The position numbers and the translations under genes are program-made. This document shows positions 33,997 through 48,354 of a stretch of 64,000 nt of DNA, one piece after another. The DNA comes from an uncultured Desulfobacteraceae bacterium (GTDB taxonomy: Bacteria > Desulfobacterota > Desulfobacteria > Desulfobacterales > UBA5852), in assembly GCA_913060875.1 (NCBI GenBank), contig CAJXSL010000006.1, positions 124,001-188,000 of the forward strand. Reading direction: 5' to 3'. The notes beneath the pieces are model-generated. The model was given only the letters and a program-made list of their open reading frames with translations, did no database searches and was not told the DNA's origin. Positions within the stretch are counted from its first letter, which is position 1; each line of letters starts with the position of its first letter.

Positions 33997-34357
33997 CCGG
34001 GAAAGGTATCGGGACGGCGCTGTGTTTCCTGGAGCTTCGCCAACCATTTTGGCATCGCGATATCGCTGGGGAGATTGAGTTTTTTCTTGATAAAACACTA
34101 TTTTTTCTGCTATTTATGAAAAATTGTGTAACGGACGGGGGCTGCCTAAGCGTCACCTGATGATGGGTGATGCGTCCATACAGAAAATTCCAAAAATTGA
34201 AGACCATTAGAATCGTATTTTGAAATGTACGGTGATAAAGGTTTGCGAAGCATGCGGGGCGCTATCGGCCGAATGGCCTGCAACCCCCATATAAGCGCCT
34301 GAAGGAAGCTCAGGGCGGCTTGGATATAAGCCGAATATATTCAGGGAGGTACATCAA
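33997..34357. other. Gene-free interval, 361 bases, upstream of the signalling cluster
   Basis: Separates the CoA-transferase gene from the roadblock/GTPase cluster and should hold the cluster promoter. The best pair is TTGATA (34087), 18 bases, TATTTA (34111), about 240 bases before the first gene. No sigma54 -24/-12 pattern, riboswitch or terminator was recognised. Confidence 0.45.
34087..34116 (+). promoter_or_regulatory. Weak sigma70 promoter candidate for the signalling cluster
   Basis: TTGATA, 18-base spacer, TATTTA in an AT-rich stretch. Five of six bases match at -35 and four of six at -10, but the spacing to the first gene is long. Confidence 0.3.
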
Positions 34358-34762
34358 TTGTCTTATACGCTTGGCCAGAAACAGCTCGATAGTATAGACG
34401 AGATTCTCCAGACGGATTTGGTCGACATCGGTGTTCATTGTGTCTTCCTTATCGATATGTCTGGAAACATTATCGCCAGCCTCGACGACGGGGAGAATAA
34501 ACATGATATTTATTCCCTGGCAGCATTGGCGGCGGGCAATTTTGGCGCCGTAAGTGCAATGGCCAAGATTGTGGGGGAAGGAGAATTTTCCCTTCTGTTT
34601 CATAAGGGAAAAAAGGAAAATATTCATTTCAGCAAAGTTTTGACAGAGTTTCTGCTGATTACCCTCTTTGGAAACGACCTTTCTCTTGGTTTCCTTAGGT
34701 TGAAAGTTGCCGAATCCGTTGAAAAAATTAAAAAAATTCTAGAGCCCATCCACACACCCTGA
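34358..34762 (+). CDS. Roadblock/LC7 (MglB-type) protein
   Basis: Protein of 134 residues starting at TTG 34358, justified by a strong SD (AGGGAGGT). The fold pattern is roadblock/LC7: CVFLIDMSGNIIASLDDG near residue 28, IYSLAALAAGNFGAVSAMAKIVG near 50, EFSLLFHKGKKENIHFSKV near 74, then FLLITLFGN and a final helix. Roadblock proteins are GTPase-activating or scaffold partners of MglA-like GTPases; the next gene encodes one. It is therefore a probable MglB-like regulator, although overall similarity to MglB cannot be judged here. First of ten same-strand genes. Confidence 0.8.
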   Translation: MSYTLGQKQLDSIDEILQTDLVDIGVHCVFLIDMSGNIIASLDDGENKHDIYSLAALAAGNFGAVSAMAKIVGEGEFSLLFHKGKKENIHFSKVLTEFLLITLFGNDLSLGFLRLKVAESVEKIKKILEPIHTP

Positions 34763-34822
34763 AAAATGGTGCCGGCCAGGGATTTCATAATCATATGACT
34801 ATAGACGGCAGGTAAAATTTCA

Positions 34823-35428
34823 ATGGCATTTGTAAATTTAAAAAAGAAGGAAGTTCAGGTCAAAATCGTATATTACGGTCCCGGTCGCGGCGGGAAGACT
34901 ACCAACCTTGAATATATTTATACCAAGTTCAATGAACGCATCCAGACGGAGATGGTTACCGTCAAAACCCATGGTGATCGAACACTTTTTTTTGACTTTC
35001 TCCCTATCGATATTGGGAAAATTAACGGCTATACCGCCAAGATGCAATTGTATACCGTCCCCGGGCAAGTAAAATATAACGCGACCCGTCGTCTGGTCCT
35101 TCGCGGCGCCGATGGTATCGTATTTGTCGCGGATTCCATGGCCGTCCGAAGGGAAAAGAATATCCTTTCGCTAAAAAACCTGCATGAAAATCTGAAGAAC
35201 TATAAAAAGAGCATTTTTACCATTCCGCTTGTTTTTCAGTACAACAAGGTTGACCTCGCGGAACAGGGAATTCCATTGCTTCCATTTGCTACAATGGAGA
35301 AAGATCTCAATAGCCAACTTAAACGCCCGGCTTTTGAAGCGAGCGCCGTAACAGGTTCCAATGTCGTCCCGACATTAAAAAAGATTATTACCATGACGAT
35401 GACCTCTATCAAGGACGAACTCAAATAG
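34823..35428 (+). CDS. MglA-like Ras-family GTPase
   Basis: Small GTPase of 201 residues. G1 is GPGRGGKT (19-26), the switch I region has TLFFDFLP (54-61), G3 is TVPGQ (78-82) with Thr in place of the Asp of Ras, the hallmark of the MglA family, and G4 is NKVD (141-144). In Myxococcus MglA sets cell polarity for gliding and for type IV pili; MglB is its GAP. The chain ends with a helical KKIITMTMTSIKDELK tail. It follows the roadblock gene by 60 bases. Here it heads a cluster with a pilus-type ATPase rather than gliding genes. Confidence 0.93.
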   Translation: MAFVNLKKKEVQVKIVYYGPGRGGKTTNLEYIYTKFNERIQTEMVTVKTHGDRTLFFDFLPIDIGKINGYTAKMQLYTVPGQVKYNATRRLVLRGADGIVFVADSMAVRREKNILSLKNLHENLKNYKKSIFTIPLVFQYNKVDLAEQGIPLLPFATMEKDLNSQLKRPAFEASAVTGSNVVPTLKKIITMTMTSIKDELK

Positions 35429-35438
35429 GAGGTGGCCG

Positions 35439-36125
35439 TTGAGCAATGATTTTCAGGAAAAGAAAGTGGACAGCGAGTTGGAGAACCGTTTGGATTCACT
35501 TTTTGATGAAGACGGCCTGGATGAAGAGATGCCCAAAGGTGTCGGTAGCTCTTCAAAAGACCCTTTAGATGAACTGAAATCGCTCGTTATGTCCATAGAA
35601 TGGGAGATTACGGACGATATCATGGAGCGGTTTCTTGATCAGATCGATTCACTCAAAACGCGCTTTGGGGAAGATCGAATTATTGTTATGTTCCTGCAGT
35701 TACTTGGCTCCCTGGGGTTGTATGTCAAAACCAATAAAGGGAAAGCGCATCCCAGTTCGTTCAAGTTGTTAAATTCAGTCTATGAAAGTTTTGAAAAAGC
35801 GGTTTCTCCTGGGAAAATATCGCCTTCCGAAAAGAAAAAGTTGCTCTATATTGAACTCAATAAATACAAAGAATTAAAAGAACAAATAGAATCTGTGAGG
35901 GAACCTGAGCCCTCTCGGTCGTCTACGATGACCGCGGGGGCTTCGGAGGGTAATGGCCCGAAGAAACCCCCGGCCGGTGAGGCAAATGCCAAGGCTACCC
36001 CAGTCCAAGGCTCTGGTGGGATAACACAAGCCTATTTTGATGAAGTTGTAAATAATCTGAAAAACGCTATTTTGGGCGAACTTGTTGGTATCCGAAAGGA
36101 ACTGAAACGGATCGCAAAATCTTGA
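35439..36125 (+). CDS. Hypothetical protein of the GTPase cluster
   Basis: Unrecognised 228-residue protein. TTG 35439 is chosen because AGGAGGTGG precedes it, 10 bases after the GTPase stop. The N-terminal 40 residues are acidic; residues 45-150 look like a helical bundle (SLVMSIEWEITDDIMERFLDQI, then FEKAVSPGKISPSEKKKLL); a Pro/Ala/Gly-rich linker (about 155-190) leads to a C-terminal helix FDEVVNNLKNAILGELVGIRKELKR. The helical bundle and flexible linker suggest a scaffold or adaptor. No enzyme motif is visible. Position between the GTPase and the next regulators implies involvement in the same process. Confidence 0.7.
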   Translation: MSNDFQEKKVDSELENRLDSLFDEDGLDEEMPKGVGSSSKDPLDELKSLVMSIEWEITDDIMERFLDQIDSLKTRFGEDRIIVMFLQLLGSLGLYVKTNKGKAHPSSFKLLNSVYESFEKAVSPGKISPSEKKKLLYIELNKYKELKEQIESVREPEPSRSSTMTAGASEGNGPKKPPAGEANAKATPVQGSGGITQAYFDEVVNNLKNAILGELVGIRKELKRIAKS

Positions 36126-36223
36126 TGCGATTATTCGGGATTAAGCTCGGTTGCGTAAAAGAATAGGACGCCTCTGATCGACGGATACGAATGCATTGGG
36201 TTAAAGAGATGAGGAGGTAGGCG

Positions 36224-36694
36224 ATGGATTTATCGTCTGGAGATATTTCTGATCTAATCTTTAAGCCGGTTGTTAGGGATGATTTAGGGAACTTCTCTCT
36301 CGATGGTCATATGTTGAGTGTCCTTATGGCACTCGACGGAAAAAAAGCGCTTCGCCAGGTTGCGCAAGAGACTGGCCTCAACATGGCGACCTTACGTGAA
36401 GCTGCCGGTAAACTTCTCGAACTGAAATTGATTGAAACGGTTGAAGTCGGCATTGCTGTTGTCGATAACGAGTTTATTTCATATATGATTACGGAACTTT
36501 CGATGGCCATCGGTCCATTAGGAGAGGTCATTGTGGAAGATGGTTTGGAAGATCTGGGCTTTAGCCGTAATAATTTTCCAACCCATCGTGCCGCTGAACT
36601 CATCAATTTACTGGCCCAAGAGATTCAGCGAGAGGAAAAGAAAACAGAATTCAAACAGAACATGGTAAAGAAAATTAGAGAAAAAGGCTACTGA
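36224..36694 (+). CDS. Winged-helix-like protein of the GTPase cluster
   Basis: Protein of 156 residues after GAGGAGG. Residues 25-70 (LDGHMLSVLMALDGKKALRQVAQETG...) resemble a winged helix like those preceding DUF4388-type or PqqD-like segments. The C-terminal half, MAIGPLGEVIVEDGLEDLG...AAELINLLAQEIQ, recalls a short helical domain found at the ends of some bacterial roadblock-associated and response-regulator proteins. No DNA-recognition helix is obvious, so a protein-interaction role is as likely as DNA binding. Function unknown. Confidence 0.65.
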   Translation: MDLSSGDISDLIFKPVVRDDLGNFSLDGHMLSVLMALDGKKALRQVAQETGLNMATLREAAGKLLELKLIETVEVGIAVVDNEFISYMITELSMAIGPLGEVIVEDGLEDLGFSRNNFPTHRAAELINLLAQEIQREEKKTEFKQNMVKKIREKGY

Positions 36695-36831
36695 TACACG
36701 CTCTGTATCATCACCTTTGCATAAAATTTGACACATCGGATTGAACAATTCAGGTTGTCGGCGTTTTAAACCGATCTGGATCCCATCTGGCATTCCAGAA
36801 ATTTGTCGATATTGCAGACAAGGAGTAGGCC

Positions 36832-38184
36832 ATGATCGTAATTTGTGAGGAGTGCGGGAAAAAATACAAGATCGACCCTGCTAAAATCAAAGGTGATCAA
36901 GCACGCTTCAAATGCAAGGCATGTTCGCATGTTATCACCGTTACAAAACAAGAGGGCGTAAAAGAACCTGATGTTACGCCGGATCCGACACCTGCGGTGC
37001 CCAGTGTACAGGATGATAATGCGTCGCAGGAAGCGTCTTTTGATGATAGCGCAACGGCGTCTCCGGAAGCTAAGCCCGCAAGAGAATCGACCGCCAGAAG
37101 GGTTGAGAGTCGGAAAAAGAAAACAGGTATGGGTTTGACAACCAAAGTCATTCTATTGATGCTGCTGGTCAGTTTATTGCCCGGAGCAATATATTTCGTC
37201 ATTTCATTTAAACAAACCAACGACCGTATTCTCACCGATACAACGCGATTCGGCAACCAGATAACCACTGCTTTGGCTGATGAAGTCAACGAATGGATTG
37301 ACAAGAATGTGCGGGTTTTAAAGGCGGTTGCCAAGATGCCCGGCATACAATCCATGAATCGTTTCGAGCAGGAAATTTTGCTTAAAACCGTTCAAAAGGA
37401 ATACCCTTGGATGTATTTGGTTTTCACAACCGACATCAATGGGATGAATGTCGCAAGAAACGACGGAAAAGACCTGAAAGACTATTCGGATCGCCAATAT
37501 GTCCAGGACGTCACCTCAGGCAAGGAAGTTGCGTGGCAGAATCTGATAGGAAAAACATCCAAAAAGCCTGCCCTCGTTATTGCCGTACCCATTAAGAAAA
37601 ACAACCAGATGATCGGCGTCCTTGCCGCTGCAATGACCCGGGATGCCATCAGCAAACGTATCGCTACATGGAGTCAAGGACAGACAGGATACGCCTTTCT
37701 GGTCGATCAAGACGGTAAAGTCGTTGCCCACCAGAAGAAGGAATTTGTAGAAAAACAGGAAGATTTTAGCAAACATGATCTTGTCAAAGCGAGTAATAGA
37801 AAACAAAAGGGAATGATAGAATTTAAAGATACCGGCCGCGATGCTATTGGGTTTGCCCAAAAAACCGATCTGGGTTGGACTCTGGCCACTCAGCAGGAAA
37901 GAAATGAAGCTTTTGTTATCCTAAAAGAGGCTCAAACCTATGCGTTTATTCTTATGGGTGCGACCTTTGTGGTCGTTGTTTTAATTGCCTATCTTGCGAG
38001 CCGGGCGATTGTTACCCCCATACGCAAACTGACAGATGCAGCCAACCGGATCAGTGTCGGGGAGCTTGGTGTGGAAATTGAAAATAAATCTAAAGACGAG
38101 ATTGGTGACCTGGCTGAAGCTATTACGCGGATGCAGGATAGTATCCGTTTGTCGATAGAACGATTAAGGCGGCGGAGAAGATGA
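36832..38184 (+). CDS. Zinc-ribbon, Cache and HAMP membrane sensor without output domain
   Basis: Membrane protein of 450 residues. It opens with an MJ0042-type zinc ribbon: C5, C8, C28 and C31 (CEEC...CKAC). A Ser/Ala/Pro-rich linker leads to TM1 (about 100-122), a periplasmic Cache-type sensor region (about 130-350; ILTDTTRFGNQITTALADEV start, VVAHQKKEF near 297), TM2 (about 362-386) and a HAMP domain ending ELGVEIENKSKDEIGDLAEA. It stops at RRRRR directly after HAMP, with no methyl-accepting, kinase or cyclase domain. The frame is intact to that stop, so this is a natural length or an old truncation. It may signal through protein contacts with neighbours. Confidence 0.85.
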   Translation: MIVICEECGKKYKIDPAKIKGDQARFKCKACSHVITVTKQEGVKEPDVTPDPTPAVPSVQDDNASQEASFDDSATASPEAKPARESTARRVESRKKKTGMGLTTKVILLMLLVSLLPGAIYFVISFKQTNDRILTDTTRFGNQITTALADEVNEWIDKNVRVLKAVAKMPGIQSMNRFEQEILLKTVQKEYPWMYLVFTTDINGMNVARNDGKDLKDYSDRQYVQDVTSGKEVAWQNLIGKTSKKPALVIAVPIKKNNQMIGVLAAAMTRDAISKRIATWSQGQTGYAFLVDQDGKVVAHQKKEFVEKQEDFSKHDLVKASNRKQKGMIEFKDTGRDAIGFAQKTDLGWTLATQQERNEAFVILKEAQTYAFILMGATFVVVVLIAYLASRAIVTPIRKLTDAANRISVGELGVEIENKSKDEIGDLAEAITRMQDSIRLSIERLRRRRR

Positions 38185-38409
38185 CAAACAGTTAATAGAG
38201 CGGTAGGTGAATTGATTAAAAACAGTTCTCTTGAATGCCGCAGGCCTGTTCAAAAGCTACAGTGTATCCATTCTGAAAAGGGCTGCGGCATTGGCTTTGA
38301 ATGTTTGTAATTGTCACAACATATTCTGCATCTTGGTAAATGGAGAAAGCGTAATTAATAGATGTAAACCCGTTGGACCCATTTTATCATTTGATGCTCA
38401 GGAATCAGA
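38185..38409. other. Gap of 225 bases inside the signalling cluster
   Basis: AT-rich, no hairpin terminator. A chance 60-codon frame at 38231-38413 has no SD and unusual composition and is not accepted. If the sensor gene once continued with an output domain, no recognisable remnant (such as the MCP hairpin-tip motif) remains here. Confidence 0.4.
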
Positions 38410-39411
38410 ATGATTGTTATACCCAAAGAAAATCCTATTATCGGAAATATGAACAGTTATTATGTTCAGATTGAGCGGCTCATTGAACACTATCAAGGTG
38501 AAGTGGGTTGTGGTGGGCTATATTTCAAATCCATGTCGTCTGAAGGAATTATTTTTTTTGATAAAGACGAGGTGCTAAACGGGTTATTTCTAAAAAAGGA
38601 AGACAGGACCAAGGGCAAAGATGCTGTCGATCGCCTGATCAAATCGTCTGAAGCAACAAACTATGCTTTGAGTGTTTATATCCTTAGGCCTGAAGATATT
38701 TATTTTTGGTCTACGATTCCAGATGCACAAAAAATTTATCAAGACCTCTCAACCGAATTTACGGATTTAGAGGGGCTGATAAAGAAGATGAAATCGGAAG
38801 GTTTGACCGGCTTTATTGAGGTTTTCATAAATGATAAAACGGGTGGCGGTCTGATTTTTTTTAATAATGGCCAGATCGCTGGTGGTTCCTACAGCTGGGG
38901 GAAAGGTGACAGCCTCAGGGACGTTGACGATCAGAAAAGGCTTATTCAGTTGACAAAAGACCATGGCGGGTCTTTTCATGTAAGCCGGATACCATTGAAT
39001 CAGAACGAATTAGCTGAAGATGACGAGATGGAATTGGATGCTGAAGAAGTCTCTGATAAACCCTCCAAGCGTATTCTTGTAGCAATGGAGGAAATGATTG
39101 CCATCTTTGAACGTACGGTTCGTGGCACCAAAAGTATCGATACCGATTTTGCGACCCTTTTAAGACGCAAATTTGTTGAAAAAGCTGACCGATATCCATT
39201 TCTTGATCCTTTTGCCGCTGAGTTCAAGTACGCCGATGAGAAAATCACTTTCGACGGCAGTACGACCGACGGAGAGTTAACGAAAGGCGTCATGGAATCA
39301 ATTTCGGAACTTTCCGAAGAACTCAAGGCATCAGATCGTTTCAAGAGTAATCTTGCCACGTGGATGAAAAAGTATAAAGAAGAAGTTGAAACTTTTGGAA
39401 TCAAATTTTGA
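38410..39411 (+). CDS. DUF4388-like protein of the GTPase cluster
   Basis: Protein of 333 residues. Residues 30-70 and 125-165 each have the pattern of a short beta-rich module ending in a turn with Asn/Asp-Gly: the second, GLTGFIEVFINDKTGGGLIFFNNGQIAGGSYSW, follows the DUF4388/PATAN logic (GxLxv...gxlyfxxGxixxA). An acidic linker (about 200-220) precedes a helical C-terminal domain (RILVAMEEMIAIFERTVRG... KYADEKITFDG). DUF4388/PATAN modules occur in polarity and motility regulators and bind small GTPase or response-regulator partners in some systems. Function otherwise unknown; assignment by motif only. Confidence 0.65.
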   Translation: MIVIPKENPIIGNMNSYYVQIERLIEHYQGEVGCGGLYFKSMSSEGIIFFDKDEVLNGLFLKKEDRTKGKDAVDRLIKSSEATNYALSVYILRPEDIYFWSTIPDAQKIYQDLSTEFTDLEGLIKKMKSEGLTGFIEVFINDKTGGGLIFFNNGQIAGGSYSWGKGDSLRDVDDQKRLIQLTKDHGGSFHVSRIPLNQNELAEDDEMELDAEEVSDKPSKRILVAMEEMIAIFERTVRGTKSIDTDFATLLRRKFVEKADRYPFLDPFAAEFKYADEKITFDGSTTDGELTKGVMESISELSEELKASDRFKSNLATWMKKYKEEVETFGIKF

Positions 39412-39460
39412 TTTTTCTGCCGTGCTGTAGTGAACCATACGCGATTTTTTTACATCAATT

Positions 39461-40468
39461 ATGGATGCTTCTTTACGCAATTATTCAGAGTTTGTTCGGA
39501 ACTTGCCCGTAGCCGTATATCGCGTCACGGTCGAAGGCAAAATCGCTTTTTGTAACGACCCATTCGCGCGCATATTTGGTTTTGAGTCGGTAAACGAGGC
39601 CATTGGATTTCCCGAAATTAAGCTCTATCGGAATAAAAGAGACCGCGGGACACTGGTTCAGGCTGTTCTACAAAATGGCATGATAAGTGAAATGCCGGTA
39701 CCTTTTTCAAGGCTGGATCGGACGCCCATTTGGTGTTCGGTAACAACCAAAGCCATTATTGATGATGATGGCGAGGCCGTATTCCTCGATGGTCTTGTTC
39801 GTGACATTACGGGTGAAATCGAGGAATCCGTCGGTTATAATAACCTGATAGACCGAATGGATACAATCGAGTCCGCTGTTTTTCTTTTGGATCCTAAAGG
39901 TATCATTTTACAGGCGAATCACGCTGCTGAACAACTGATCGGTTATAACGGACATGATTTAAAAGAGCGTCTTTTTGCCGATTTTTTGGCAAAGGAGGAT
40001 CAGAAGCTGTTTTTCCTTTTCCTAGGCGATACAATTCGTATTGGACGGGAACAAATTATTCTGAAACTTAGCGGCAATACACAGCAGGAGCGTTTCATAC
40101 GTATCGAAACAGCCGTGCAAAAAAACGAAGGGCGTTCAAGGCAAATCAATTGTATTGTCAGTGATGTTACGGAAAAAGTAAGGCAAATCCGGGATAAAAC
40201 CAATCGTGATAAATTCCAGGGCGTGCTTGAAATGGCTGGCGGGGTAGCCCATAGGTTCAACCAGCCATTGACGATTATAACGAATATTATAAATGAAGCG
40301 CTTTCTATAATCAAACCTGATGATAGACTTTACAACAGCATGGTAAAGATGCAATCGCAAATTGAAAAACTAAACGATATTGCCCGAAAGGTGGGCAATA
40401 TCAAAAAATACGAAGCGGTTGATTATGTGGCCGGTGTCAAAATTGTTGATATCGACAGGGCATCTTAG
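39461..40468 (+). CDS. PAS-PAS-DHp protein lacking a kinase ATPase domain
   Basis: Protein of 335 residues with two PAS domains (about 10-118 and 128-240; each ends with a DIT/DVTE motif) and a DHp-type dimerisation region: GGVAHRFNQPLT with the phospho-acceptor His at residue 264. The chain stops at 335 (IVDIDRAS) after the second DHp helix, so the HATPase (N-, G1-, G2-box) region is absent. It cannot autophosphorylate alone; it may receive phosphate from another kinase, act as a phosphatase, or sense without phosphate transfer. The receiver protein encoded 22 bases downstream is the obvious partner. Confidence 0.85.
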   Translation: MDASLRNYSEFVRNLPVAVYRVTVEGKIAFCNDPFARIFGFESVNEAIGFPEIKLYRNKRDRGTLVQAVLQNGMISEMPVPFSRLDRTPIWCSVTTKAIIDDDGEAVFLDGLVRDITGEIEESVGYNNLIDRMDTIESAVFLLDPKGIILQANHAAEQLIGYNGHDLKERLFADFLAKEDQKLFFLFLGDTIRIGREQIILKLSGNTQQERFIRIETAVQKNEGRSRQINCIVSDVTEKVRQIRDKTNRDKFQGVLEMAGGVAHRFNQPLTIITNIINEALSIIKPDDRLYNSMVKMQSQIEKLNDIARKVGNIKKYEAVDYVAGVKIVDIDRAS

Positions 40469-40489
40469 GCTGCTATAGAGGATGAATAG

Positions 40490-41512
40490 ATGATACGGAA
40501 AGTTCTTTTTGTCGATGATGACCAGGAAATGTTGCAAGCTCTAAAAGAAGGACTAGAGAAATATCGCGAAACCTTTACGGCCGTGCTGGCTGAGGATGGG
40601 GTCGATGCGGTCAATCAGTTAAAACGCCATCCGATATCTCTCGTTGTGACAGATCTTAAAATGCCAAATATGGATGGGTTCAGTCTGCTCGCTCATGTTA
40701 TGGAAAAATATCCTGAAATTCCTGTAATCATCATTACAGGATACAGTACATCCGAGATGAAACGGCTCGCTCAGGAGGGGGGGGCTGTCGGATATATCAG
40801 CAAACCCTTTTTGATAGAGGATTTAGCAAAACACATCATGAAAACGCTTCGGAAGGAATCCGATGGGGGCACACTCCATGGCGTTTCATCTGGTATATTC
40901 CTCCAATTGATGGAAATGGAGGAAAGAACATGCACAATACGCTTGCACGACAAAGGATCGGGGATGAAGGGCGTCCTGTTTTTCAGAGATGGCGAGCTTT
41001 TGGACGCTCGCGTCGATGAAAAGCAGGGACTTGACGCGGCCTATCTCATATTTTCATGGGAACAGGTAACGTTGTCGATACAGAACGAATGCCCACAAAG
41101 GGACAACAAGATCAATAGTGACCTCCAGCCGATAATACTAGAGGCGATGCGTCTGAAAGACGAGGCTGAAGATGAAAAGGAATTAATCGCCGATGACGAA
41201 AAGGTGGAAGAAATTTCAAGCAAAGAAGAGCCAAGTTCCTCAGTTGAAAACATCAAAATGATTTTGAGCAGAGAAGTCGGAGAGCGTTGTGGGCTTGAAG
41301 ACATCTATCAAGATGGTAGTATGAACGCCGTAATTCAAACCATTTCAGAATTGGGCATGGCACACCAATATGGTGCGTTGAAAGTAGGCTACATCGATAA
41401 ACGGGCAGCGCATGATACCATCATATTACCGGGGGAGCCATCGACGATTATATCTGTTAATCCAAAATGCCCACGAGATAAAATCATTCAGGTGTTGAGC
41501 GACTACAACTGA
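40490..41512 (+). CDS. Response regulator: receiver plus DUF4388-like output
   Basis: Protein of 340 residues. Receiver domain 1-120 is intact: acidic pair D10/D11, phospho-acceptor Asp55 in VVTDLKMPNMDG, the switch Thr in ITGYST and Lys105 in SKPF. Residues 135-240 form a DUF4388/PATAN-like module (IFLQLMEMEERTCTIRL, GVLFFRDGELLDARV). After an acidic linker, residues 250-340 make a further small domain (MILSREVGERCGLEDIYQDG) that resembles a roadblock-like sandwich weakly. No DNA-binding or cyclase domain is present, so output is likely by protein contact, perhaps with the GTPase or the motor ATPase. Confidence 0.85.
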   Translation: MIRKVLFVDDDQEMLQALKEGLEKYRETFTAVLAEDGVDAVNQLKRHPISLVVTDLKMPNMDGFSLLAHVMEKYPEIPVIIITGYSTSEMKRLAQEGGAVGYISKPFLIEDLAKHIMKTLRKESDGGTLHGVSSGIFLQLMEMEERTCTIRLHDKGSGMKGVLFFRDGELLDARVDEKQGLDAAYLIFSWEQVTLSIQNECPQRDNKINSDLQPIILEAMRLKDEAEDEKELIADDEKVEEISSKEEPSSSVENIKMILSREVGERCGLEDIYQDGSMNAVIQTISELGMAHQYGALKVGYIDKRAAHDTIILPGEPSTIISVNPKCPRDKIIQVLSDYN

Positions 41513-41566
41513 GGCGAACGATAACGGCGTCAGCAAATTCGATAAATCATTGGCAGTGCGGGGCGA

Positions 41567-41926
41567 ATGACAAATATGAAAGATCTCTTCAATGATGTGT
41601 TAAGCATCAGCGGCGTTCAGGGTGTGATACTGTTTTCCGGGCAAGGAAATATTATTTACGATTCAATTGAAGACCAGCAACAGGGAAAACCGCCGACATT
41701 CAAAAATTGGAAAAAACTTTTTGGAATACTTCAAAATACGCATGAGGCTGATTTTGTTTTCGATAAAGGACGGTTTTATTTGCGCCGATTGGATGATGGC
41801 TTTTTGTTAATTCTGATGCAATCATTTGCTTCGATAGCGATGGTGAAATTAAATTGCGACATTTTGCTTCCTCAAATCAAAACTTCGAGAAGCAGCAGGG
41901 GAATAAAGGGTTTTTTTAAACGGTGA
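41567..41926 (+). CDS. Small roadblock-like protein
   Basis: Protein of 119 residues. The sequence GVQGVILFSGQGNIIYDSIED near residue 15 and FYLRRLDDGFLLILMQSFASIAMVKLNCDIL near 70 give the alternating strand/helix pattern of a roadblock/LC7 domain, shorter than the one at 34358. The end is basic (RSSRGIKGFFKR). A second roadblock-like protein in the same cluster could form a heterodimer with the first or a different GTPase complex. Assignment is by pattern, not by a clear motif; unrelated small proteins remain possible. Confidence 0.6.
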   Translation: MTNMKDLFNDVLSISGVQGVILFSGQGNIIYDSIEDQQQGKPPTFKNWKKLFGILQNTHEADFVFDKGRFYLRRLDDGFLLILMQSFASIAMVKLNCDILLPQIKTSRSSRGIKGFFKR

Positions 41927-41993
41927 GTTAATGTGACAATTACATTAAGACAATTCCAGCGTGGTTTGTCGCTAAATAATTGAGAGTGCTAAC

Positions 41994-44375
41994 ATGGCCA
42001 AGACTGACCAAACATTGAAGTCTGATCAAAGTTCTAAAATTAACGAAGCTGAAGTTTGTTATTCAATGGGGCTATACGATGAAGCCTTGTCCATTTTTAG
42101 TCAAGTTATAGACGACTTCCCTGATCTCGATAATGAAAGTAAGAAGAAAGTACAGCAGAAAATTAAAGAGATAAAAGCGCACTTGGAAGAGCAGGAAGGC
42201 GATGAAGCCGGTAGTGTTTCAACCGAAGAAATTTCCATGTTGAAGAAGTCACTTTCCGGCCAGGAAGACGCGCCTGCGATACTCGATAGTGCATCTGCTT
42301 TCAAAGACCTGGGGCTTTTTGAGGAAGCTCTGGCTGAATATGAAAAGATTTTACTTCTCGAATATCCTCCCGAAAGCGTTATTCCAGACATCGTTGACTG
42401 TTTGCTGAAACTATTCTCACCAAATGATCTTTTTGATAAAATTTTGAAAATTGTAAGTGATCAAAGATTGGACGTCGAAAAGCGCGGTTTGGTTAAATAC
42501 CATTTCGGATTGGAAATGGAAAAACGCGATTATCGCGATCTGGCCTTAGATCTTTACGAAGAAGCTGAGAAGGACACTCCCGAAGAACCCGAGCTGGTAA
42601 AACGGATTGAAACGTTACGCTCAAGACTATCAAGTGGTTCCAAATATGACTTTCTCCTCCGACAACAGCTCGTTACTACGGAACAACTTCAAAAGGCCGC
42701 AAGCCTGTCAAAACAAACACGCAAAAGTGTTGAAACAGTTCTCATTGAAAATTTTGGGATCAGTAAAGACGATATCGGAAAATCATTCGGACAATTCTAT
42801 GGGTGTAGTTTTCGAATTTACGATGAGGACTTGTCGACTCCGTATGAATTGCTTGGCAATCTGAAAAAAGCTTTTCTGTTGCACGAACTGTGGGTGCCCT
42901 TAAGTTGGGGAAAAGAGGGTGTCGAAGTCCTTGTTGCCGATCCACGTGACCTGAATAAGACTGACAATATCAAAGCCTTGATGAAGACCGGAAAGATAAA
43001 TTTTTGTGTCGCTATCCGTGAAGATATCGAGGCTTTCATCAAGAGGTTTTATTCGACCGACCAGTACAGTGACATGGCACAGGGCGGCGAGATGATCGAT
43101 AACTTCGATGATATTCTCGATGTGTCTTTTGAGGAAGAAGATGATGTTGATGATGCCATCGATGAGTTGGACGAGAGCTCAAGCAAAGTTGTTAAATTGG
43201 TGGACCAATGCCTAATTGCCGCCTATCGAAAAAATGCATCCGACATTCATATCGAACCATCGCCCCAGACCAAGTCGACGAATATACGCTTCAGAATGGA
43301 CGGTGTATGCCAGGATTACATCAAAGTGCCGAATTCGCTCGCAAGAGGAATTATTTCCCGAATTAAAATTATGTCCAATCTGGACATTGCCGAGCGACGA
43401 CTGCCTCAGGATGGAAAAATTAAGTTCAAACGAAAGGGCATTCCACCATTCGAGTTGCGCGTTGCGACGCTTCCGACAGCTGGTGGGTATGAAGACGCGG
43501 TGATGCGTATCCTTGCAACTGCTGGTGCCATGAAGCTAGAAGATATGGGGCTGGATGATCGCAACTACGAAGTTTTGACCAATGCCATTGCCAAGCCCTA
43601 TGGACTAATTCTATGTGTGGGACCGACAGGTTCTGGGAAAACGACTACGCTGCACTCAGCGTTAGGGCATATTAACAAACCCGGTATCAAAATATGGACC
43701 GCCGAAGATCCTGTAGAGATAACGCAATTAGGACTTCGACAGGTTGAAGCCAAGCCAAAAATCGGATTGGATTTTGCAAGGATCATGCGCGCCTTCCTGC
43801 GTGCTGATCCCGATGTTATTATGATCGGCGAAATGCGTGATGAAGAAACGGCCTCTATTGGTGTGGAAGCATCCCTTACGGGACATCTCGTGTTTTCAAC
43901 GTTGCATACCAACAGTGCGCCGGAAACCATTACCCGATTGCTGGATATGGGGCTGAATCCACTTAATTTTTCGGATGCTTTTCTTGCTGTTTTGGCGCAA
44001 CGGCTCGTTAGAAGATTGTGCGACTGTAAAAAAGAATTTCATCCAAGCCGCGAAGAATTCGACCAGATTGTAGAAGACTACGGGGCCGAACATTTTGAAA
44101 AATCAGGAATGGAATATTCAGACGATCTAATTCTCTATCATGCTGGAAGCTGTGAAAAGTGCTCTGGAACGGGCTACAAAGGTCGTATGGGAATCCATGA
44201 ACTGATGGATGGTACCAAAATAATTAAACGCCTTATTAAGCAGGCCGCTCCAACTGATAAAATTTTTGAACAGGCCATTACAGAAGGGATGTCTACCCTG
44301 AAACAGGATGGTATTCACAAAGCGTTTAAAGGATTTACTGATATGACCGAAGTAAAGCGCGTTTGTATCCAGTAA
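41994..44375 (+). CDS. PilB/GspE-type ATPase with N-terminal TPR-like region
   Basis: Hexameric-motor-type ATPase of 793 residues, longer than usual PilB (about 570). Residues 15-205 are helical with TPR-like pairs (AEVCYSMGLYDEALSIFSQVI; KDLGLFEEALAEYEKIL). Residues 215-350 form a GspE N-terminal (MshEN-like) domain starting LLRQQLVTTEQLQKA. The motor follows: Walker A GPTGSGKT (543-550), Walker B with Glu in IMIGEMRDEETA, and a zinc-binding set CDC...CEKC near residues 675-725. PilB/GspE proteins power pilus extension or type II secretion. No pilin, platform (PilC/GspF) or secretin gene is in the window, so the apparatus is elsewhere, or the ATPase serves another machine. Confidence 0.92.
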   Translation: MAKTDQTLKSDQSSKINEAEVCYSMGLYDEALSIFSQVIDDFPDLDNESKKKVQQKIKEIKAHLEEQEGDEAGSVSTEEISMLKKSLSGQEDAPAILDSASAFKDLGLFEEALAEYEKILLLEYPPESVIPDIVDCLLKLFSPNDLFDKILKIVSDQRLDVEKRGLVKYHFGLEMEKRDYRDLALDLYEEAEKDTPEEPELVKRIETLRSRLSSGSKYDFLLRQQLVTTEQLQKAASLSKQTRKSVETVLIENFGISKDDIGKSFGQFYGCSFRIYDEDLSTPYELLGNLKKAFLLHELWVPLSWGKEGVEVLVADPRDLNKTDNIKALMKTGKINFCVAIREDIEAFIKRFYSTDQYSDMAQGGEMIDNFDDILDVSFEEEDDVDDAIDELDESSSKVVKLVDQCLIAAYRKNASDIHIEPSPQTKSTNIRFRMDGVCQDYIKVPNSLARGIISRIKIMSNLDIAERRLPQDGKIKFKRKGIPPFELRVATLPTAGGYEDAVMRILATAGAMKLEDMGLDDRNYEVLTNAIAKPYGLILCVGPTGSGKTTTLHSALGHINKPGIKIWTAEDPVEITQLGLRQVEAKPKIGLDFARIMRAFLRADPDVIMIGEMRDEETASIGVEASLTGHLVFSTLHTNSAPETITRLLDMGLNPLNFSDAFLAVLAQRLVRRLCDCKKEFHPSREEFDQIVEDYGAEHFEKSGMEYSDDLILYHAGSCEKCSGTGYKGRMGIHELMDGTKIIKRLIKQAAPTDKIFEQAITEGMSTLKQDGIHKAFKGFTDMTEVKRVCIQ

Positions 44376-44401: not shown

Positions 44402-44443
44402 AAAAGCGAAGGCCTTTCGCAGTTGAGAAGCCTTCGCTTTTTT
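44402..44443 (+). terminator. Terminator closing the signalling cluster
   Basis: Twelve-base inverted repeat AAAAGCGAAGGC/GCCTTCGCTTTT (44402-44413 and 44430-44441) with a 16-base loop, ending in TTTTTT. It begins 27 bases after the ATPase stop and just before rsmG, marking the end of the ten-gene unit. Confidence 0.9.
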
Positions 44444-46745: not shown

Positions 46746-47246
46746 CTAAAAATCGATATGACGGCAAAGGATGCGATGGTTGGCAATGTCGACTATCGCA
46801 ACAGAGGGATGATGTCCTCCTCGCGGAAAAGAGGCACTGCCTGGATTGAGATAAATAACCCCATTTTTTTCGATTAGCGAGGGCCGATGGGTATGACCGC
46901 TGACGACAACCCGTATACCGGATGCCTCCGGATCCAAACCGATATGGCTTAGATCGTGAATCATGTAAATGAGTGTCCCGCCGGCTTCAATGTATTCCTC
47001 TGATGGCAGTGCCTGTGTCCAATTGCCAAAATCCATATTGCCGCGAACCGGACAGACATGGCCAATGTCTGCTAATGACTTCAATACCTTTGGGTTGTCG
47101 ATATCACCGGCATGAAGGATGAGATCCGTTCCGGTTAAGGCATCAAGAACTTGGCTGTCAAGATGGCCGTGTGTATCGGAAAGGACTCCAACTTTAACGC
47201 TATCGCGGCGCGCAAGTGGCGTATCGTGCTGATGTTTAGCGTGCAT
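46746..47246 (-). CDS. YfcE/MJ0936-type metallophosphodiesterase
   Basis: Calcineurin-like phosphodiesterase of 166 residues. Metal-binding motifs are in family order: VGVLSDTHGHLD near residue 17, DLILHAGDIDNP near 36, VRGNMDFG near 60 (GNCD-type, with Met-Asp), YMIHDLSHIG near 87 (usually GH; here IHDL), and VVSGHTHRPSLIE near 107. ATG 47246 overlaps the end of the upstream gene by 11 bases, implying coupled translation. Family members hydrolyse phosphodiesters such as bis-pNPP or cyclic nucleotides in vitro. Its pairing with a cNMP-binding/PilZ protein is suggestive but unproven. Confidence 0.87.
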   Translation of the reverse strand: MHAKHQHDTPLARRDSVKVGVLSDTHGHLDSQVLDALTGTDLILHAGDIDNPKVLKSLADIGHVCPVRGNMDFGNWTQALPSEEYIEAGGTLIYMIHDLSHIGLDPEASGIRVVVSGHTHRPSLIEKNGVIYLNPGSASFPRGGHHPSVAIVDIANHRILCRHIDF

Positions 47247-48354
47247 GGTACAAATTATCGGCAAAAACGAGCAACAAACCACTTAAATTGGGCGACATGG
47301 CATTGAACTGAATGCCAAGCGCCTGGGCATCCCCAGGCTCTGTGGAAATGATCTGGGACCAAATAATTTTACCTTTGATATTTAACGTCATGGCGTCGTT
47401 TGGCGGACTCATCATAATGGTGACGGATTTCCCAATAAGCTGGCTGGGTCGGGATGGCTGTGTGTCACCGTCTAGGACAAGGCACGCCCCGCCAATCGAC
47501 AAATCCCGTGCAAAACCGCTGAGCTTTAAAAGAGAGGTTAATTCGTCGTATTCGTGAACTTCTAATGTGACCCTTACCGGAATCGAATGGCGGCGAAGTT
47601 TGCGGTCGACATGGGGGGCGGGATTTCGTTGGCGATGGTTAGCGAACAACTCTGATACGGCCGGCCCAATGGAAGGAAACAGTTCGCTGATGTCAATCAG
47701 GCTTTCACGGGATATCTTGACCAGTTCCACTCGTGTTGCGGTTTCCGTGTAGGATTGTGAAAAATGATCTTCCTCCAAGGGGAAAATTTCACCGAAAATT
47801 TCGGATTCGATGCTTTCCAGGCACTGATCACGTTCTTCGGATTGCTGGACGGAGGGATAGGTGCGGCGACGGAGTTGGCCGGAGACGACCATGTAAAGGC
47901 TGTTTTCAGGGTCACCGAATTTTTTGACCATTTTACCGGCGGGAAGCACGATGCGTTCCAGTCGTGTGATGAGGGCGATAAGCTCTCTGAAAGAGAGACC
48001 GGCGAAAAACATATTCAACGGCGTCGCTCGTGGATTGTTTTCGATAAGGCTGTGATAGAATTGCTTAATGGCTTTGAAGGAGGGTTTTACGATTTGCCAT
48101 TGCATCATTTTGGCAACAACGGCTTGGAGTACGAATCCCGAATCGATGAAAATAGCGGCGGTTTTGTCATAGTACTCCGCCGCGGCTGCAAATGACTTGC
48201 GCTTTATCAAAAGGTCAGCCAGGGCGCGGTGAAGATGCGGATTACCGGGAAAAATTTTAAGCATGCTTTGAAATTCACCAATGGAGTCAATGGTGATCGA
48301 CCCATCCGTGATTTGGTTGACAATGCTGCTTTGCAATTTGGCGGTATTAGCCAA
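47236..48354 (-). CDS. TPR, cyclic-nucleotide-binding and PilZ protein
   Basis: Protein of 372 residues with three parts. Residues 30-115 are TPR-like helices (NPHLHRALADLLIKRKSFAAAAEYY). Residues 120-230 form a cNMP-binding fold (FRELIALITRLERIVLPAGKMV; SLYMVVSGQLRRR; EIFGEIFPLEE; ATRVELVKISRESL), though the phosphate-binding cassette is divergent. The C-terminus is a PilZ domain: RKLRRHSIPV gives an R..RR motif near residue 253, FARDLSIGGACL matches the D.S.GG motif, and QALGIQFNAM closes the barrel. The intact PilZ motifs favour c-di-GMP binding. It would join two nucleotide signals in one protein. Operon with the phosphodiesterase and the DUF2062 protein. Confidence 0.85.
   Translation of the reverse strand: MANTAKLQSSIVNQITDGSITIDSIGEFQSMLKIFPGNPHLHRALADLLIKRKSFAAAAEYYDKTAAIFIDSGFVLQAVVAKMMQWQIVKPSFKAIKQFYHSLIENNPRATPLNMFFAGLSFRELIALITRLERIVLPAGKMVKKFGDPENSLYMVVSGQLRRRTYPSVQQSEERDQCLESIESEIFGEIFPLEEDHFSQSYTETATRVELVKISRESLIDISELFPSIGPAVSELFANHRQRNPAPHVDRKLRRHSIPVRVTLEVHEYDELTSLLKLSGFARDLSIGGACLVLDGDTQPSRPSQLIGKSVTIMMSPPNDAMTLNIKGKIIWSQIISTEPGDAQALGIQFNAMSPNLSGLLLVFADNLYHAR

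Follow-up and report, generated by a model that had tools for sequence, protein, structure and literature searches.

An MglA-type GTPase operon with a TPR-fused, PilB-class ATPase in Desulfobacterales: a probable control unit of the type IVa pilus

The window analysed here, 64,000 nucleotides of DNA from an uncultured Desulfobacteraceae bacterium (contig CAJXSL010000006.1, positions 124,001 to 188,000), contains ten open reading frames (ORFs), A to J, that bring an MglA-type small GTPase together with a PilB-class motor ATPase. All ten lie on the plus strand between window positions 34358 and 44375, with short gaps between them, and the run is closed 3' of J by an intrinsic terminator at about 44403–44442: a 12-bp stem with an inner hairpin, then T6, with z = -4.3 against shuffled sequences. 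A simple scan overlooks this terminator because of its long loop. The layout—one strand, short gaps, strong terminator—is as described in a first-pass annotation made from the sequence alone, which proposed a compact switch, with a Ras-like GTPase and a receiver both working on a motor. Below, G000 is the window genome, other G numbers are the genomes compared with it, and L numbers are the loci compared; the genome sampling includes metagenome-assembled genomes.

Gene B (34823–35428, +) encodes the GTPase, a protein of 201 aa with a Pfam match to Ras. It carries the defining features of MglA GTPases: a P-loop (GPGRGGKT at residue 19), threonine in place of aspartate in G3 (TVPGQ at 78; the Thr78 already noticed in the first-pass annotation) and an NKxD motif (NKVD at 141). 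Gene A (34358–34762, +; 134 aa), whose TTG start is kept in relatives, encodes the presumed GTPase-activating protein of B. It has the two marks of an MglB: a roadblock domain (Pfam Robl_LC7, 27.8 bits, cut-off 23), and a gene beside mglA in every locus with enough flank, meaning the 33 Desulfobacterales loci with at least 9.5 kb downstream. Against the NCBIfam MglB (Thermus) equivalog it scores 51.5 bits, and the cut-off of 200 is not reached. Gene I (41567–41926, +) is predicted to encode a second roadblock-fold protein, too divergent for Pfam (12.9 bits, below threshold). Its AlphaFold model has the roadblock fold (Foldseek: MglB 1j3w, TM 0.73, E 8e-5), and its best solved matches are MglB, Ragulator subunits and MglC. 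The two roadblock-like proteins of the first-pass annotation are both recovered, one by Pfam and one by fold.

The last gene, J (41994–44375, +), encodes an extension ATPase of the PilB class, with a TPR-like N-terminus (TPR, tetratricopeptide repeat) followed by MshEN and T2SSE (377.7 bits). Walker A, Walker B, the Asp and His boxes and the C-terminal Cys pairs are all kept, and the closest solved relatives are the PilB proteins of the Myxococcus and Geobacter type IVa pili; J has the structural features of a PilB extension ATPase, the MshEN-type N-domain included. This MshEN domain is degenerate: it scores 22.3 bits against the cyclic di-GMP motif model NF053729 (cut-off 38), which two ATPases of the same genome pass, MshE with 54.7 and the C8 ATPase with 67.9. 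We regard J as a PilB-class motor from a separate clade, outside the curated equivalog. Its clade is shared, with support of 100/100, by K, a GAF-MshEN-PilB paralogue that groups with the deep forms of J at 95/82. In the window genome K is an orphan ATPase (G000:C6:252295-254013; L066:7714-10020), and most genomes of the order carry it.

That this ATPase has an added N-terminal helical region was correctly noticed at first pass, but the region was under-read: residues ~1–214 (41994–42635, +) form a TPR domain of a specific family, and this domain is the key piece of the operon. J 1–214 aligns with the TPR protein encoded directly before MglA2, a second MglA of the window genome (C10), at 99% probability by hhalign (E 6.7e-18) over 183 columns that include a non-repeat stretch. 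With a PilF-like TPR protein the values are 13.5% and 1.6%, a contrast that is indicative rather than exact, since the control was a single sequence and the test a pair of alignments. The TPR profile finds three members only in the 5.9-Mb window genome: J, the MglA2-adjacent protein and a third beside a histidine kinase. The unit TPR–MglA2–DUF4388 recurs in most of 20 loci. In L022 and L023, a stand-alone TPR protein, 38–39% identical to J 11–208, ends the module where J would be, and in L166 (6396–11511) MglA and a long C homologue are followed by a fusion of the TPR domain with a Ser/Thr kinase where the TPR-ATPase would otherwise stand. Because the domain neighbours MglA as a protein by itself and also in fusions with various outputs, we read it as a probable adaptor between MglA and those outputs, on which MglA-GTP would dock. 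This suggests that the MglA switch acts on the motor directly, without a separate go-between protein. A bolder version is possible, and we hold it only tentatively: the domain might be a portable MglA-GTP effector of Desulfobacterota with interchangeable outputs (PilB motor, Ser/Thr kinase, stand-alone adaptor), such that a Ras-like GTPase gates the pilus motor by direct contact, this input having replaced cyclic di-GMP, as the degenerate MshEN would show.

Relatives of these proteins occur in other settings too. The second MglA module (G000:C10:52606-55450; L087:8098-11334) encodes the TPR protein, MglA2 (60% identical to B), a DUF4388 protein with two cyclic-nucleotide-binding stretches and a PilZ-like protein; in L057 and L058 it lies ~5 kb from a module of the window type. 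Where a J paralogue lies apart from MglA, a receiver-PAS protein comes next, joined in L101 by MCP, CheW and CheA. J paralogues with receiver, MCP, CheW and CheA-like genes behind them are seen in L100, L101, L103, L167 and L168, possibly a chemosensory version of pilus control.

The operon is widely conserved. Scanning with B yielded 57 loci, nearly all in Desulfobacterales, with B 67–97% identical. Among the 33 with enough flank, A and C are always present, H is found in 31, E in 30, D in 29, I in 28, F in 27, J in 25 (one further J lies nearby in L051) and G in 8. The same gene order recurs among Desulfobacterales loci, and since it is kept in dozens of species the arrangement is not due to chance. 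Desulfobotulus alkaliphilus (L056) is a candidate for a cultured carrier of the full set. Full-length J, defined as a match starting before residue 60, occurs in 45 of 118 genomes drawn evenly across the order; in 37 of these 45 an MglA gene lies within ~10 kb on the same contig, several of the exceptions being contig ends and the linkage counts coming from tables that omit some weaker matches. When 247 genomes of the phylum were searched with the TPR profile, 23 had it, nearly all in a fused frame of 720–850 aa, and 17 of the regions found were read. In deep Desulfobacterota families these contain a four-gene core, MglB-MglA-C-J (L159, L161, L163, L164, L165), and in one family the order MglA, PATAN, F, I-like, D, E, C, J (L157, L158, L162). 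From the cores, the ancestral unit appears to be MglB-MglA-C-TPR-PilB. The module extends far beyond close relatives, then, as a check proposed with the first-pass annotation had asked, and the compact switch that it envisaged is well supported by this conservation. In two further loci (L155:6962-11250 and L156) a ParA/MinD-like ATPase gene lies directly 5' of MglA and J, with PATAN receivers upstream.

Which machine might J drive? The first-pass annotation called the target unknown, a verdict that can now be replaced by a likely answer, the type IVa pilus, from bookkeeping of motors and platforms. In the window genome pilMNOPQ (C9), pilC with a PilS-like kinase (C1) and pilTU (C13) occupy separate sites, none of them beside pilB, and other genomes of the order likewise have pilC-pilS without pilB. 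With these genes scattered, J is not part of a complete pilus operon elsewhere, which the first-pass annotation had also proposed to check. Two further pilus clusters (one MSHA-like) and a Tad cluster each have their own ATPase and PilC-like platform. For the bookkeeping, T2SSE matches were set against T2SSF matches, every PilB-type ATPase against every PilC, in nine deep-branching genomes, all nine of which have PilO. G344, complete in one contig, encodes three T2SSE proteins (J, PilT and PilU) and one PilC; J is the only PilB-type motor there besides PilT/PilU, and so the only motor for a type IVa pilus platform in a complete genome. Compared with the window genome's orphan PilC, the G344 PilC is 56% identical, and PilT and PilU of G344 show 71% and 63% identity. 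In G151, G209, G184, G233 and G325 each other PilB-type ATPase adjoins its own PilC, and the one PilC that stays unpaired is left for J. The bookkeeping is not decisive for G178, G326 and G249, where one additional orphan ATPase is present or the contigs are broken. Given the single PilC of G344 and the paired PilB proteins of five more genomes, J is most likely PilB, the extension ATPase of a type IVa pilus that it would assemble.

The remaining genes surround this core. Two proteins passed over at first as unrecognized can be given an outline. C (35439–36125, +) is a conserved helical protein, located after MglA in all loci with enough flank, and we propose it as a binding partner of MglA or of the ATPase. 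Its AlphaFold model has a pLDDT of 80.5, with no PDB fold match at E <= 0.001, and the C of deep lineages may have a CheW-like tail, the match scoring 15.1 bits, below cut-off. A phospho-histidine in C was considered and rejected, the His of its 'AHP' motif not being invariant in the alignment; so was a CheA P1-like fold, the matches to which are not significant (E 0.5–1). In L034 (10616–11686) C is fused to a transmembrane-HAMP segment, which suggests that C works with the membrane sensor E. The other unrecognized protein, D (36224–36694, +), is recast as a winged-helix protein (HTH_47, 20.5 bits, below cut-off); its homologue in deep lineages is fused to DUF4388 (51.7 bits).

E (36832–38184, +) is, by Pfam, a membrane sensor composed of zinc ribbon, dCache and HAMP; like the Cache/HAMP sensor of the first reading, it has no output domain. 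H (40490–41512, +) is a response regulator, likewise read correctly as a receiver (91.3 bits) fused to a DUF4388 module (49.9 bits). It is a PATAN-receiver protein of the PixG/PixE kind, the two domains being in one polypeptide, and its phospho-acceptor Asp55 is nearly invariant (Glu in two homologues); most homologues keep the receiver intact. H is duplicated inside the module in L051 and L059, and I also in L059. F (38410–39411, +), put forward as a second DUF4388-like protein, is weak in its own right (13.4 bits, cut-off 25), but a distant deep homologue passes with 37.2 bits, and hhalign matches the register of F to the core of H with a probability of 38%. G (39461–40468, +) has the architecture PAS-PAS-DHp and, as had been seen, no HATPase domain. 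The split phosphorelay is only partly borne out. In the homologues read, the His is invariant, the acidic residue after it is lost in all, and a conserved tail replaces the catalytic (CA) domain. G lacks the catalytic ATPase domain of a histidine kinase; it may relay phosphate or act as a scaffold, and, present in 8 of the 33 loci, it is an optional component outside the module core.

Upstream of the operon, a search for an RNA element gave chance-level matches only. A TTGATAAAACAGGCTTTTTT-like stretch at window positions 34086–34115, ~240 bases before A, is common to the close relatives L010, L011 and L012 and is possibly a conserved promoter. Near the operon, on the minus strand (47236–48354), a protein with TPR-like, cyclic-nucleotide-binding and PilZ domains is encoded.

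We consider it fairly probable that the operon controls a type IVa pilus. J would power a pilus whose remaining genes (pilMNOPQ, the orphan pilC and pilTU) sit elsewhere in the genome. In its GTP state B would dock on the TPR domain of J, licensing the motor or positioning it at the active pole, where J would then be localized, and A would turn B off. One polypeptide would in this way do the job of the Myxococcus chain MglA–SgmX(TPR)–PilB. Further inputs would have been added in Desulfobacterales: the Cache/HAMP sensor E, the PATAN-type proteins D, F and H, and the second roadblock protein I. By analogy with PixG in Synechocystis, phosphorylated H might bind J or PilC.

Several observations weigh against this reading or narrow it. 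J reaches 495.5 bits with the type IVa PilB equivalog TIGR02538, the cut-off of which is 675.65, and in the tree its clade stands well apart from canonical PilB. Of 118 genomes drawn from the order, 111 have the type IVa PilC and 45 have full-length J, so J is not obligatory, and we rejected the idea that it is the sole PilB of all Desulfobacterales. Within the order J is accessory, and its role as pilus motor is less sure there because K, of the same clade, is more widespread; K may share the orphan PilC. J might even be a regulatory ATPase in the window genome, where one orphan PilC is on offer to J, K and two further orphan ATPases: K, which most genomes of the order carry whether or not they have J, would extend the pilus, and J would modulate K or compete for PilC. 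The intact catalytic motifs of J, however, and its position as sole candidate motor in deep lineages make this unlikely. The missed equivalog cut-off would also fit a J that drives some other filament or secretion machine (MSHA-like or type II secretion-like) under MglA and receiver control; the window genome does have an MSHA-like cluster and another pilus cluster, and in L104 a J paralogue adjoins MshE. Those clusters come with their own ATPase and PilC, however, and G344 has no second platform at all, so that we think such a machine quite improbable; type II secretion and MSHA as such were rejected as targets, their loci carrying their own ATPase and PilC.

Other points concern the partner of the TPR domain. 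J occurs without MglA in L154, L160, L167 and L168, and some copies are linked to chemosensory genes instead, so the domain may bind something else. The candidates would be the receiver, a PATAN protein or a CheY-like protein, with MglA acting on another product of the operon, such as C. In J paralogues without MglA the TPR domain is retained and a receiver comes next, in some cases with MCP, CheW and CheA, and the third TPR family member of the window genome adjoins a histidine kinase. Yet beside MglA2, where there is no receiver, the TPR domain forms a protein by itself, no receiver is found among the adjacent same-strand genes of the deep MglB-MglA-C-J cores, and TPR-MglA binding is established for SgmX and Bd2492. 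We find this alternative rather doubtful, and prefer MglA as the ligand of the TPR domain and the type IVa pilus as the target.

If that is right, three things follow in interest. In Myxococcus PilB reaches the pole with the help of MglA and SgmX, and no direct SgmX-PilB contact has been detected; a TPR-PilB fusion beside mglBA across a phylum turns direct coupling into a simple binding question. A likely type IVa pilus extension ATPase can be named for many sulfate reducers, whose pil genes are scattered. And the known cases of Ras-like switches tied to a molecular motor gain one more.

That MglA controls type IVa pili by way of a TPR protein is known, and so is the control that PATAN receivers exert on PilB, each from a different phylum; our literature search, which did not extend to subscription papers, found no description of a single operon that unites the two and has its motor fused to the TPR domain. 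The closest likeness is to the MglA-MglB/SgmX/PilB system of Myxococcus xanthus (PMC7519303, PMC7668184, PMC11580455), which likewise has an MglB-MglA pair, a TPR protein presumed to connect to the extension ATPase, the type IVa pilus as target and the involvement of receiver-type regulators. MglA-GTP binds the TPRs of SgmX there, and SgmX is needed for PilB localization (PMC7668184, PMC11580455), with no direct SgmX-PilB contact detected (PMC11580455). SgmX, however, is a separate protein of 1,060 aa with 14 TPRs, whereas here ~210 aa of TPR are fused to the motor and all the genes lie in one operon. Cyanobacterial PixG and PixE also combine a receiver with a PATAN/DUF4388 domain and are, like H, encoded beside a PilB, and PATAN receivers bind PilB1 and PilC in Synechocystis (PMC12288463, PMC9090330). 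In the operon described here, in contrast, the receiver is N-terminal with PATAN after it, and there is no photoreceptor. No MglA is known to us from the cyanobacterial systems. A survey of prokaryotic GTPases (PMC4316618) found only occasional PATAN neighbours for this group of MglA, noting them close to some mglA genes of Groups 1 and 5, and, in the passages available, it reports no fixed Group 1 neighbourhood and names no PilB; here, the conservation of gene order and ATPase spans the order, and that of the core spans the phylum. The J paralogues with receiver, MCP, CheW and CheA (L101), outside the window operon, resemble in their logic the Pil-Chp system, through which Pseudomonas exerts chemosensory control over its pili.

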